A DNA stretch of 64,000 nucleotides. It comes from Lysinibacillus pakistanensis (GTDB taxonomy: Bacteria; Bacillota; Bacilli; Bacillales_A; Planococcaceae). Where the stretch lies: positions 5,082,501 to 5,146,500 of the forward strand of contig NZ_CP126101.1 of the NCBI RefSeq assembly GCF_030123245.1. Reading direction: 5' to 3'. Under the pieces are notes generated by a model. The model was not told the DNA's origin, ran no database searches, and was given only the letters and a program-made list of their open reading frames with translations. The position numbers and the translations under genes were made by a program. Position 1 is the first letter of the stretch. Each line of letters opens with the position of its first letter. Of the stretch, positions 2,265 through 57,429 are shown piece by piece.

Positions 2265-2446
2265 TATGACACCTCCTATTAGAATGGGTCATTTATACCG
2301 ACAAAAGAAAAGCCTCTGGGTCAAATAGACACAGAGGCTGAAAGTCATCATCTTTAAATAAGAATCTGAATTCCGATGTCCTCGGTAGGAACATTAAGTG
2401 ACAAGTCACTCCTACTGTCTACGGTACAAATGGATAATTCACAACA
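2265..2446 (-). promoter_or_regulatory. L10 leader with attenuator hairpin (autoregulation of rplJL)
   Basis: A roughly 180-nt untranslated leader runs from the likely start site near 2446 to rplJ. Near its 3' end AGCCTCTG (2339-2332) pairs with CAGAGGCT (2318-2311), followed by a T-rich tract (2310-2303), which looks like an intrinsic terminator ahead of rplJ. The position and the terminator match the known L10 leader of Bacillaceae, where L10-L12 binding controls readthrough. The family assignment rests on location and hairpin, not on a covariance-model search. Confidence 0.75.
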
Positions 2447-2452
2447 GCAACC

Positions 2453-2481
2453 ATAATATCATATATAATTACTGTTGTCAA
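2453..2481 (-). promoter_or_regulatory. Sigma-A promoter for L10 leader-rplJL
   Basis: A perfect TTGACA (2481-2476) and TATTAT (2458-2453) are separated by 17 nt on the minus strand, placed to start the L10 leader about 180 nt before rplJ. Confidence 0.8.
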
Positions 2482-2493
2482 TATATATATAAA

Positions 2494-3192
2494 TTATTTT
2501 ACTACTACATTAGAAGCGTCAATTTTAACAGCTGGACCCATTGTAGTTGTAACGTTTACAGATTTCATATAAGTACCTTTAGCTGCTGCTGGTTTTGCTT
2601 TTTGCACTACATCAAAAACAGTTAAGAAGTTTTCTACTAATTTTTCTGCTGAGAAAGAAACTTTACCGATAGGAGCGTGAATGATACCAGCTTTATCTGC
2701 ACGGTATTCTACTTTACCAGCTTTGATTTCTTCGATAGCTTTTGTTACATCAAAAGTAACTGTACCAGTTTTAGGGTTTGGCATTAAGCCTTTAGGTCCT
2801 AAAACACGACCAAGTTTACCAACTTCACCCATCATGTCAGGAGTTGCTACGATTACATCGAAATCAAACCAACCTTGTTGGATTTTTTGGATGTACTCTG
2901 CATCACCTACATAGTCAGCGCCAGCTGCTTCAGCTTCTTTAAGTTTTTCACCTTTCGCGAATACTAATACGCGTTGAGTTTTACCAGTACCGTTTGGAAG
3001 CACTACTGCACCGCGGATTTGTTGGTCGTTTTTACGAGTATCAATACCTAAACGGAAAGCAACTTCTACAGTAGCGTCGAAGTTTACTGTGCTAGTTTTT
3101 TGAGCAAGTTCAATTGCCTCTTGAGCGCTGTAAAGCGTGTTACGATCGATTAATTTTGCTGCATCTTGCAGTTTTTTACCTTTTTTAGCCAT
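2494..3192 (-). CDS. rplA: 50S ribosomal protein L1
   Basis: L1, 232 residues, forms the mobile L1 stalk of the large subunit at the tRNA exit site; in many bacteria it also represses its own operon. The N-terminus ([16 protein letters not shown]), the glycine-rich [18 protein letters not shown] segment and the C-terminal [13 protein letters not shown] are diagnostic. The start has AGGAGG upstream. It follows rplK by 116 nt in the standard rplK-rplA order. Confidence 0.98.
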
Positions 3193-3308
3193 TATATAAT
3201 TCCTCCTTGATTGTGGTTGTAGCGGATTTTACCTCCCACGAATAAAGGTTGCGCGTTCACAAAGAAACTTCGCAACCTTCCAAAAAACAAAACATCAAGT
3301 AACAGGGA

Positions 3309-3734
3309 TTAGTCTTCGATAACAATTCCCATGCTTCGTGCAGTACCTTCAACCATTAACATAGCAGCTTCTACTGAAGCAGCGTTAAGGTCTGGCATTT
3401 TAGTTTCAGCGATTTCGCGAACTTTATCACGTTTAACCGTTGCCACTTTTTTACGGTTTGGTTCACCAGATCCAGATTGGATACCAGCTGCTACTTTAAG
3501 TAGAACTGCTGCAGGTGGAGTTTTTGTAATGAAAGTGAAAGAACGGTCTTCAAATACTGAAATTTCAACTGGAATAATAAGACCAGCTTGATCAGCCGTA
3601 CGCGCATTGAATTCTTTACAGAACCCCATGATATTCACACCTGCTTGACCTAATGCAGGACCAACCGGTGGAGCTGGATTTGCTTTACCAGCAGGGATTT
3701 GAAGTTTTACAACTTTAATAACTTTTTTAGCCAC
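3309..3734 (-). CDS. rplK: 50S ribosomal protein L11
   Basis: L11 binds the GTPase-associated centre of 23S rRNA and is needed for stringent-response activation of RelA; thiostrepton acts at this site. The start is GTG at 3734 ([20 protein letters not shown]), with AAGGAGGTG upstream. This gives the standard 141 residues; a longer reading frame reaching 3785 would add a non-homologous N-terminus. The [22 protein letters not shown] stretch is typical, given here in part only: [11 protein letters not shown] near residue 20. Confidence 0.97.
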
Positions 3735-55550: not shown

Positions 55551-55596
55551 AAAAAAGTCGATTTGCATCACATTTTTTGTGGCAAATCGACTTTAT
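55551..55596 (-). terminator. Terminator hairpin, copy 2, after the tRNA-like element
   Basis: GTCGATTTGCATCAC and GTGGCAAATCGAC pair, then TTTTTT on the minus strand. It matches 52563-52609 with about three differences over 50 nt and would end the transcript carrying the RNA ligase and the tRNA-like sequence. Confidence 0.85.
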
Positions 55597-55652
55597 CAGT
55601 ACCTCCAAGTTTATAAGGAGACCTTTTAATAACACGTTAACATTTTATTAAG

Positions 55653-55720
55653 TGAGGATAACAGGAATCGAACCCGTAACCCCTTTTCTATAGGGATATG
55701 CAGCCCTTGCATTCTTCCTC
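55653..55720 (-). tRNA. tRNA-like element, 68 nt, anticodon loop ATAGAAA
   Basis: On the minus strand a compact cloverleaf can be drawn. Acceptor GAGGAAG/TATCCTC has one A-A mismatch and one G-T. The D arm is TGCA-AGGGC-TGCA. The anticodon arm TCCCT-ATAGAAA-AGGGG has a 7-nt loop with T at position 33, which gives anticodon AGA. The variable region is only TT. The T arm is ACGGG-TTCGATT-CCTGT with a canonical loop, and the discriminator is A. No CCA is encoded. AGA would read serine UCU, but serine tRNAs have a long variable arm, so this is not a normal tRNA. It could be a pseudo-tRNA or a specialised RNA. It lies 92 nt after the RNA ligase gene, on the same strand. Confidence 0.6.
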
Positions 55721-55812
55721 ATAATATATAATTTTTGATTGATTGATGTAGTATTACATTTTTCTCAGTCCCTTTTTACTAGTTTGAAATCACATTTCTC
55801 CTACATAAGGTT

Positions 55813-56448
55813 TTATTTTAAACGATTAGGAATGACTTCTTCTTGTAACCAATGCTCGCTTGTTTGAACATGATCCATTCTGACAAATTTCCCCAAATTG
55901 GATTGGAAATCATCGTAATGGAATGAACCAGCATTTCTAATGACATACCCCTCTTGTTCACCATCAAACAGTGATATACCCGTAAATGTACGTTTTATTT
56001 TTTCTTCATCGAAAATCCCTCGATATAAAACAGGTACCGTTTCAATACCTAACTCAGCGGCAAAGGCAATCGTCTCATCCCAGCTCAAACAAATATTATC
56101 TTCATTCCAAATACTAAACAAATAAAAGTAGCTTGTTAACGCTTGATAATAAATGGAATGCTTGGCGTAAACATTTTCTCCACATAATCGCCAATCATTT
56201 GGAATCCTATACGCAAAACTCGCGTGAAATGTTTTTACCCAATGTCTAGAGGGATGGTTGGCTGAATTGATACTTCTAGCATGCATATAGTCTCTGTATA
56301 GGGTTGTGCCTTCCCCATCTAATTTTTCAGTGACAACCACTTCTTTTCCTAAAAAGTGATTCACGTTTTTAGCAACTTTATCATCATGGGTATAGCCCCT
56401 GCTCCAAGGTAAATGAAAGCTTCTTGGGTATTTTTTTAATTTCGACAT
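55813..56448 (-). CDS. Rnl2-like RNA ligase
   Basis: 211-residue nucleotidyltransferase-fold ligase that seals RNA 3'-OH and 5'-phosphate ends via a lysyl-AMP. Motif I EKLDGEG puts the nucleophile at Lys42, the conserved Arg is in HARSIN (58), the motif III region is GENVYAKHS (Glu91), motif IV is EGYVIR (166-171), and motif V is KFVR (Lys187). The short C-terminus lacks the Rnl2 specificity domain. It follows the kinase-HD gene by 24 nt; together they resemble a split healing-and-sealing pair. GGAAGTG precedes the start. Confidence 0.85.
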   Translation of the reverse strand: MSKLKKYPRSFHLPWSRGYTHDDKVAKNVNHFLGKEVVVTEKLDGEGTTLYRDYMHARSINSANHPSRHWVKTFHASFAYRIPNDWRLCGENVYAKHSIYYQALTSYFYLFSIWNEDNICLSWDETIAFAAELGIETVPVLYRGIFDEEKIKRTFTGISLFDGEQEGYVIRNAGSFHYDDFQSNLGKFVRMDHVQTSEHWLQEEVIPNRLK

Positions 56449-56472
56449 ATCATCACTTCCTTTCCCTATTAT

Positions 56473-57429
56473 TTATTTAGCAAATTGATCTGCCTCACGG
56501 AAAAAGTAAAGCCTCGTTAATAAATCACCATCTAATAGATGATAAATTTCACTGCCACCTCTATCGCCCCCATACTGTATTAACATATGGAATTGCACTA
56601 AATAAACGACCTTTAAAACAAAGTTCTCCTCAAAGCCCAACTCTAATAAAAAATGACAAACCAGTTGAGCAGATACATTTTCATGTCCAAAATAGCCATA
56701 TCGTTGTTGCAATGGTTTATATTTTTTACAAAATGGCTTACCGACATCATGAAACAATGCAGCTATTTGTAATGCCAATTTGTCGCTTTCCATATAGTAT
56801 TCATTGATATAGGCAAATACGAAATACGTATGCTGACATAGTAAAAATTGATGGAATGGGTTTTCTTGATCGAATTGATAAATTTCTTTAAAAAGTGGGA
56901 TTGATCGAAGTGTTTGAAAAAGCTCTTCATAAGTGGGCTGGCTCTGAATGAGTGCAATAAATTGCTGTTGAGAAATTTCATAGGGACTTGAATCATGTAC
57001 AATATGCACTACATCAAATCCTTCTCCTACTGTTGGGAATTCTAAATGCTTTCTCATTTTTTCCATCACCAATAATGGTACATGCCGCTTCCGTTGTTGG
57101 TTTCTAGCTACACAAATTGAATAAGGTGTATCAAAGTAATAGCATTCCTTCTTAATATTGCTTGGTAATTTACGAAGTGCAAACACCCTGCGGTCCCTTT
57201 CAATATTTGTGGCATCAACTATGACAGAAAAACCTTTTGCCACTAAATTATTTAAACGCTCATATAATGTACGAAAGACTACACGTGATTTTTGCTTCGT
57301 TGCATCGCCAAACAATTCCTGACGTATTGCATCACTCGAAAGAATGACTGCATTTTCGCTTATTGCTAGCTGTTTCACAAATGTACTTTTTCCACTCCCA
57401 GGCAACCCCACTGTAAAGATTACCTTCAT
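56473..57429 (-). CDS. Polynucleotide kinase-HD domain fusion
   Basis: 318 residues. The N-terminal P-loop kinase has Walker A GLPGSGKST (about 8-16), VDATNIERDRR (kinase DATN region) and an arginine-rich lid (RNQQRKRH). The C-terminal HD phosphohydrolase has LLCQHTYFVFAYINEYY and ALFHDVGKPF, with later His residues (GHENVSAQ, QFHMLIQ). The layout is analogous to T4 Pnkp: 5'-kinase plus a 3' end phosphatase or cyclic phosphodiesterase, here by an HD domain (inference). The start is ATG 57429 (MKVIFTVG), with GGAGG 8 nt upstream. First gene of the repair operon. Confidence 0.85.
   Translation of the reverse strand: MKVIFTVGLPGSGKSTFVKQLAISENAVILSSDAIRQELFGDATKQKSRVVFRTLYERLNNLVAKGFSVIVDATNIERDRRVFALRKLPSNIKKECYYFDTPYSICVARNQQRKRHVPLLVMEKMRKHLEFPTVGEGFDVVHIVHDSSPYEISQQQFIALIQSQPTYEELFQTLRSIPLFKEIYQFDQENPFHQFLLCQHTYFVFAYINEYYMESDKLALQIAALFHDVGKPFCKKYKPLQQRYGYFGHENVSAQLVCHFLLELGFEENFVLKVVYLVQFHMLIQYGGDRGGSEIYHLLDGDLLTRLYFFREADQFAK

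Follow-up and report, generated by a model that had tools for sequence, protein, structure and literature searches.

What does a bacterial operon for RNA repair carry behind its last enzyme gene, and what could such a tail be for? The locus studied here lies in a stretch of 64,000 nucleotides (nt) of the genome of the soil bacterium Lysinibacillus pakistanensis (NZ_CP126101.1, positions 5,082,501 to 5,146,500; the whole stretch is called the window) and encodes a polynucleotide kinase fused to an HD phosphohydrolase (kinase-HD), an RNA ligase and a tRNA-like element. A sequence-only reading of the window had described these three as a candidate RNA-repair unit. Its interpretation stands for the enzyme pair and for the element as a feature of the genus, yet it overlooked a wider feature, a Shine-Dalgarno (SD)-like stretch followed by an ATG and an adjacent stop codon, with the pentamer UACAU downstream. 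We show here that this SD-ATG-stop arrangement, in the following termed minimal open reading frame (ORF), is an older and wider 3' feature than the tRNA-like element. Our preferred account, which we put forward tentatively, is a two-enzyme RNA-repair operon, the transcript of which has a conserved 3' region that serves control or damage sensing by means of the minimal ORF and UACAU.

A start-stop site behind the ligase gene

The motif between the ligase gene and the tRNA-like element consists of an SD-like stretch, an ATG and, at once, a TAA, usually with a T next. Ninety-three sequences with a match to the ligase were collected, of which 86 were full-length; these comprise 64 distinct sequences over the first 150 nt 3' of the gene. 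Six of the 64 (L029, L037-L041) do not come from Bacilli by their titles, which leaves 58 Bacilli loci. Scanned with a loose SD criterion, 56 of these 58 have an SD-ATG-stop within about 150 nt of the ligase (for L001 and L015 the second match is the conserved one), and it is lacking in L036 and L057. Beyond the Bacilli it is carried by L029, which is binned as Neisseriaceae and phage-like by its genes, and it was not found in L037-L041, which belong to other phyla. The linkage to the ligase is tight: of 32 Lysinibacillus genomes 20 have the motif, each of them once and next to the ligase in every case, while a reversed control pattern had no match in the Lysinibacillus genomes. Among phage relatives of the ligase the SD-ATG-stop is present in 1 of 78, and TACAT lies within 150 nt in 10. 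The motif was also predicted beforehand for 16 loci that were then taken from two unused families, and 12 of them have it. Of the four held-out loci without it, L122 and L123 do have a kinase motif, whereas none was found in L121 and L125; L128 has the SD-ATG-stop despite a partial ligase and no kinase motif found.

Several properties point to a site that ribosomes recognize. The stop codon is TAA in 67 of 68 loci and TGA in the remaining one, and the calculated pairing with the anti-SD tail of the 16S rRNA has a median of -10.5 kcal/mol at the minimal ORF, compared to -3.3 at random sites and -21.5 at the kinase start. With a pairing between that of random sites and that of the kinase start, translation of the minimal ORF is likely. 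Conservation reaches slightly past the SD and the codons, with a G at position -7 in 98% and a T after the stop in 96%, and this would suit a motif that is not translated at all and acts as a protein-binding site in RNA or DNA, or as one arm of a hairpin opposite UACAU. L034, however, retains a stop codon while its sequence changes, and we regard an untranslated motif as unlikely, also in view of the pairing data discussed below. Reading ATGTAAT as a -10 promoter box was ruled out by eye, given the G in second position and the lack of a constant -35 box.

The window has a second SD-ATG-TGA (AGGAGAAATGTGA; 55790-55795, minus strand) with its ATG 36 nt upstream of the conserved ATG. It is probably a chance occurrence, since the scan of other Lysinibacillus loci reached the conserved site first. 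The surroundings of the minimal ORF differ between families. In L116 (family f22, Brevibacillus-like by guess) a gene with a SUFU domain according to Pfam (2344-3429) lies 3' of the minimal ORF on the same strand, and by eye the following reading begins in the same way in several of L113-L120 and L124. SUFU proteins are often immunity proteins against nuclease toxins, and such a neighbour would fit a toxin-defence setting. A hairpin-like stretch (AGAGTATCCAAA...TTTGGCTATTGTTAAG) was seen by eye between minimal ORF and next gene in L113-L120, L124 and L128; an Rfam search of L116 and L126 gave no family above its cut-off. In L055 and L056 (genus g19) minimal ORF and UACAU together take up about 20 nt right before the SD of the next gene, which is situated about 30 nt 3' of the minimal ORF and by eye resembles an ankyrin-repeat protein.

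UACAU and the MazF toxin

UACAU is described as the cleavage site of MazF from B. subtilis, B. anthracis and staphylococci including S. aureus (PMC5408214; this and the papers on Salmonella, Deinococcus and axe-txe below are cited from excerpts). To judge its frequency, 68 loci were clustered at 88% ligase identity into 30 groups, and weighted counts were compared with dinucleotide shuffles; the groups were treated as independent, which is only roughly true. Downstream of the minimal ORF, TACAT is the most enriched of all 1024 pentamers at 60, 120 and 250 nt, with 13.4, 18.6 and 21.6 groups observed compared to 1.9, 4.5 and 6.8 in shuffles. The enrichment concerns the sense strand, as the antisense ATGTA occurs in 4.1 groups within 120 nt and is not enriched. 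Behind other ORF ends of the same loci TACAT is found in 10.8% of 157 (120 nt, read from 60 nt past the stop). Its density is 6.3 per kb after the minimal ORF, 0.8 within the two genes and 1.1 in front of the kinase, and the 3,022 nt that separate the ligase stop from the minimal ORF contain none.

The AUGUA of the minimal ORF is complementary to UACAU, therefore both signals might be parts of one hairpin, and in the predicted fold of the window they are indeed paired. Against a hairpin speak the bases that flank TACAT, which do not prolong the pairing (weighted, a T before it in 4.6 of 33.4 and a G after it in 0.6 of 33.4), and the spacing, which varies from less than 20 to more than 200 nt. 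By its flanking bases, AUGUA-UACAU pairing is disfavoured as the cause of the TACAT enrichment.

The genome of the window (G000) encodes a single PemK/MazF protein, the best PDB matches of which include 7bxy (200.7 bits) and 4hke (200.5), followed by the EndoA chains 4me7 and 4mdx of B. subtilis (197.6). Orthologues with 79-93% identity are present in all ten ligase-bearing host genomes that were checked. Judged by sequence, the locus thus resembles known targets of MazF (EndoA) from B. subtilis and S. aureus, with UACAU in its predicted tail and an EndoA-like protein in the host. ChpBK is described to cut like MazF and to leave a 2',3'-cyclic phosphate and a 5'-OH (PMC5408214), and activated MazF has been used to generate such ends (PMC7790460). 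Mending ends of this type would need a kinase, a phosphoesterase and a ligase.

The tRNA-like element of Lysinibacillus

A covariance model of the element was built from five copies and run on the 32 Lysinibacillus genomes. Matches of 52-96 bits were obtained in 20 of them, all adjoining the ligase or its remains. Every one of the 17 genomes with an intact ligase has the element beside it (59-96 bits, copies used for model building included), so that the claim of a tRNA-like element made from the window alone holds. Five genomes have a broken ligase or a remnant of one, namely G012, G019, G022, G023 and G030 (loci L058, L060, L062, L059 and L063). A strong element is still present in G012, G022 and G023; G019 has a degraded one (35 bits) beside its ligase remnant, and G030 a truncated one beside a short remnant, with nothing above 36 bits. 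None of the ten Lysinibacillus genomes without ligase has the element or any match above 36 bits. In the 17 genomes with an intact ligase all matches away from it stay at or below 36 bits, and three weaker matches inspected elsewhere are ordinary tRNA-Trp or tRNA-Gly genes. Outside the genus the model found no match at E <= 1 in any of the 50 ligase loci searched (loci, not whole genomes), many of which keep enzyme pair and minimal ORF, for example L008, L010 and L052; the sequence motif of the element was found in 20 of 22 sources and in neither L008 nor L010. Conservation beside homologous pairs thus holds within the genus and does not extend to the pairs examined outside it, and the element is a genus-level addition and not a basic part of the system.

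In the window the element shows acceptor, D, anticodon and T arms, and thus a tRNA-like fold. Its score with the Rfam tRNA model is 23.4 bits, below the cut-off of 29, and ARAGORN makes no tRNA call for it. Among the elements of relatives, 4 of 11 searched reach the cut-off (29.3-36.2 bits) and three more match below it, and ARAGORN returns untyped or odd calls for some. Folded alone (75 nt), the window element has a z-score of -1.78 compared to shuffled sequences, 12 of 200 of which fold equally well. RNAalifold on a MAFFT alignment recovered the T arm only, with zero compensatory changes, because the arms shift; the arms of 20 copies were therefore parsed by a script, which leans towards the cloverleaf. 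The acceptor stem has 5-6 of 7 pairs in all 20 copies, pairs 1-5 each being formed in at least 17, with A.A at pair 6 in 18. The T stem is complete (5 of 5 pairs) in 19 copies below a nearly constant T loop UUCGAUU, and the D stem has all its pairs in 17, its loop containing GG. The anticodon stem has 4-5 pairs, the anticodon loop ranges from 4 to 13 nt, the variable loop is short, and CCA is encoded in few copies only. We claim conservation of the fold and no covariation, because the copies are closely related and the parse is biased to the fold. The element looks like an L-shaped tRNA mimic without the decoding part.

Some explanations of the element were discarded. An ordinary decoding tRNA gene is ruled out by the anticodon loop of 4-13 nt, the missing ARAGORN call and the low Rfam score, and a chance fold by the conservation of the element. 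A promoter of its own was rejected by eye: the AT-rich stretch in front ends 1-3 nt before the element, and no -35 fits. The element could instead be a functionless tRNA gene, decayed or captured beside the repair operon, as its score below the cut-off, its odd anticodon loops and the lack of an ARAGORN call might suggest. We consider this very improbable, since the match is strong in all 17 genomes with intact ligase (five copies of which built the model), since the cloverleaf is preserved while loops diverge, and since the element is absent or degraded where the ligase is lost, except for the three genomes that have retained it beside a broken ligase.

Two further explanations, each of which we find unlikely and neither more so than the other, assign the element a task of its own. 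It may be an RNA-processing site at which excision by RNase P and RNase Z defines a stable 3' end of the operon mRNA. Acceptor, T and D stems are the parts that these two enzymes read, and these are the parts kept in nearly all copies; the scarcity of an encoded CCA and the position just before the terminator would also suit processing. The A.A at acceptor pair 6 speaks against it, as do the loci outside the genus, which manage without the element. Alternatively, the element as a stable RNA may be the purpose of the unit, serving as decoy, substrate or sensor for toxins that cut tRNA, with minimal ORF and UACAU being incidental. Its strict association with the ligase in Lysinibacillus and the elbow features (D-loop GG, T loop UUCGA), preserved despite the drift of the anticodon loop, are in favour of this. 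On the other side stand the 50 element-free loci, many with enzyme pair and minimal ORF, and the inconstant anticodon loop, which offers no fixed target for an anticodon nuclease.

A tRNA-like RNA in a repair transcript had been thought to be undescribed by the sequence-only reading. This does not hold in general, as the rsr-yrlBA-rtcBA operon of Salmonella encodes the Y RNA YrlA with its tRNA-like domain, for which a role as competitive inhibitor is suggested (PMC7790460). This precedent and proposal support a stable RNA as the purpose; according to the same excerpt, fragments of YrlA were not detected in Salmonella, which argues against it (PMC7790460). Both systems encode repair enzymes and a tRNA-like RNA together. 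In contrast to the window pair, the Salmonella operon has RtcB, RtcA and Rsr with the regulator RtcR, and a minimal ORF is not mentioned in the excerpt. None of the ORFs beside our pair reads like Rsr, RtcB or RtcA (by eye, no profile search of neighbours having been made), and no Y RNA family appears among Rfam matches at E <= 10.

The enzyme pair and a possible role of its tail

The features of the locus are collected in Table 1. The order of kinase-HD, ligase and tRNA-like element on one strand, with gaps of 24 nt between the genes and of 92 nt between ligase and element, was verified as first described. A GTG lies 9 nt upstream of the kinase-HD start codon. Only one terminator had been seen, at the end of the unit. 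In agreement, a scan for terminators gave nothing on the minus strand between ligase and element; the two matches it made on this strand are a weak one within the ligase gene and another located upstream of the operon. The closing terminator is absent from the scan list and visible in the predicted fold. Pair and element thus apparently share a single transcript, as far as sequence can tell.

Table 1. Features of the repair locus, positions in the window
Feature	Position	Strand	Remarks
Kinase-HD fusion	56473-57429	minus	ATG start; N-terminal P-loop polynucleotide kinase (AAA_33), C-terminal HD phosphohydrolase; Pfam and PDB matches
RNA ligase, PF09414, 211 amino acids	55813-56448	minus	nucleotidyltransferase domain only; KLDGE motif intact; Pfam, alignment
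SD-like sequence of minimal ORF	55769-55775	minus	
Minimal ORF	55754-55759	minus	ATG 55757-55759 and TAA 55754-55756, adjacent
TACAT (UACAU in RNA)	55746-55750	minus	MazF/EndoA cleavage pentamer
tRNA-like element, 68 nt	55653-55720	minus	cloverleaf; A.A at acceptor pair 6; T loop TTCGATT; non-standard anticodon loop
Intrinsic terminator	55551-55594	minus	hairpin and U-run, closes the unit; predicted fold

The domains found by Pfam bear out the proposed heal-and-seal pair. The ligase belongs to PF09414 (RNA_ligase; 119.8 bits, E 1.8e-34, cut-off 27), and K42, D44 and G45 of its KxDG motif are invariant in 15 of 15 aligned sequences. It consists of the catalytic domain only, and a sequence search of the PDB returned no ligase chain at E <= 1; Rnl2-type RNA ligases have a C-terminal domain beside the catalytic one. 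The kinase-HD protein matches AAA_33 (7.8e-26, residues 3-132) and HD (2.2e-6, residues 200-285). Among the PDB chains matched by the kinase part are T4 polynucleotide kinase and kinases of the Pnkp type, and the top score belongs to L-seryl-tRNA(Sec) kinase. These family assignments suggest that the two proteins function as an RNA-repair pair. Phage relatives of the ligase comprise 32 records with less than 60% identity; among the 20 listed, genomes measure 235-735 kb. As a side observation, a match to the known small RNA family Bacillaceae-1 RNA (RF01690) is situated about 2 kb or less from the ligase in two loci (L050:2923-2988 and L051:2865-2926).

The closest studied relatives that we found are encoded by the DRB0098-DRB0099-DRB0100 operon of Deinococcus radiodurans, comprising an HD-polynucleotide kinase, PARG and a ligase-like protein (gene names from PMC1997131 and PMC11833690, assigned to the cluster by content). 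The window ligase is 48.5% identical to DRB0100 over 98% of its length, kinase and HD are likewise fused in one protein in DRB0098, and both relatives occur in one gene cluster. The order differs: DRB0098 has HD (48-173) before the kinase (266-394), while the kinase comes first in the window protein, and the Deinococcus operon starts with the ligase and has the PARG gene in between, whereas in the window the kinase gene is first and no gene intervenes. With reversed domain and gene order and no PARG between, we regard this as a related pair and not as the same operon. DRB0098 is reported to phosphorylate 5'-OH ends, and the operon is radiation-induced (PMC1997131).

How the tail could serve such a pair may be envisaged as follows. 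Kinase-HD would heal 5'-OH and 2',3'-phosphate ends and the ligase would seal them. Ribosomes would load on the minimal ORF, with SD, AUG and stop as the core of the 3' region. MazF and similar toxins would produce 2',3'-cyclic-phosphate and 5'-OH ends, which the pair appears suited to mend, and active MazF (EndoA) would also cleave the tail at the UACAU sites that many lineages have there. The upstream coding part could then be shielded by the ribosome at the minimal ORF from decay that starts at the 3' end, and the repair mRNA would outlast other messages. Once repair succeeds, the tail would be intact and normal turnover restored. In Lysinibacillus the tRNA-like domain may extend sensing to tRNA-cutting enzymes, or process or protect the end. 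Transcription as a single unit, ribosome loading, cutting by MazF and the effect on expression are presumed parts of this account.

Precedents for such short frames exist. In plant boron transport genes an AUG-stop minimal ORF is linked with ribosome stalling and mRNA decay; it likewise has start directly followed by stop, but it lies in plant 5' leaders and not in bacterial 3' regions. The two-codon minigene mg2 of the axe-txe toxin-antitoxin operon, also a minimal ORF in a transcript related to an RNA toxin, acts in cis and is proposed to protect mRNA (PMC8708949). There, ATG-ACT-TAA lies in the 5' leader and raises the downstream gene, while in the window ATG and stop are adjacent and placed behind the ligase gene.

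Several points weigh against our account. The minimal ORF is missing from three loci that have both enzymes (L036, L122 and L123), and its SD pairing is weaker than that of the kinase start. UACAU is not universal: it occurs within 60 nt in 7 of 16 element-bearing Lysinibacillus loci and is missing in nine. Taking Lysinibacillus alone, TACAT takes only rank 24 among 330 words at 60 nt, where 9 of 19 loci have it and 2.0 are expected, and at 250 nt it is found in 9 compared to 6.0 expected. TACAT was spotted by eye before it was tested; the held-out loci are the sole fresh test and upheld it only in part: of the 12 with a minimal ORF, 7 have TACAT within 120 nt, and these belong to a single group out of four. 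In 9 of the 30 groups TACAT lies inside a long reverse frame, for example the tail of a convergent gene, and without these it occurs within 120 nt in 10.6 of 21. The coding part is not clearly purged of UACAU (67 seen, 85 expected), and, AUGUA and UACAU being complementary, both might belong to a single hairpin. Finally, DRB0100 self-adenylates, and under the conditions tried it sealed neither DNA nor RNA (PMC1997131).

A broader version, in which several baits in the 3' tail together form a tripwire for RNA toxins and any cut alters the fate of the repair mRNA, seems to us still less probable than the unlikely explanations discussed above. The AUG-stop would place its stop codon in the A site of the ribosome as bait for A-site RNases of the RelE/YoeB type, UACAU would bait MazF, and the Lysinibacillus tRNA mimic would bait tRNases. 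A single untranslated tail could thereby inform the repair enzymes of RNA damage of several kinds.

Enzyme pairs of this kind are already known, and so is a tRNA-like RNA inside a repair operon, namely YrlA. As far as searched, the AUG-stop conserved behind the ligase gene, the accompanying UACAU and the genus-specific tRNA mimic beside this pair are apparently new; in the open-licence PubMed Central literature we found neither an AUG-stop conserved behind an operon's last enzyme gene nor a paper on HD-Pnk with RNA repair. For most bacteria, we judge, it is open what triggers RNA-repair enzymes and which broken RNAs they target. A repair message with a conserved start-stop site and a likely cleavage site for a common toxin makes both questions testable, and an AUG-stop that is conserved 3' of an operon's final enzyme gene would represent a new type of 3' signal in bacteria. 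Taken together, the arrangement suggests that the repair message itself may sense the damage that its enzymes mend.

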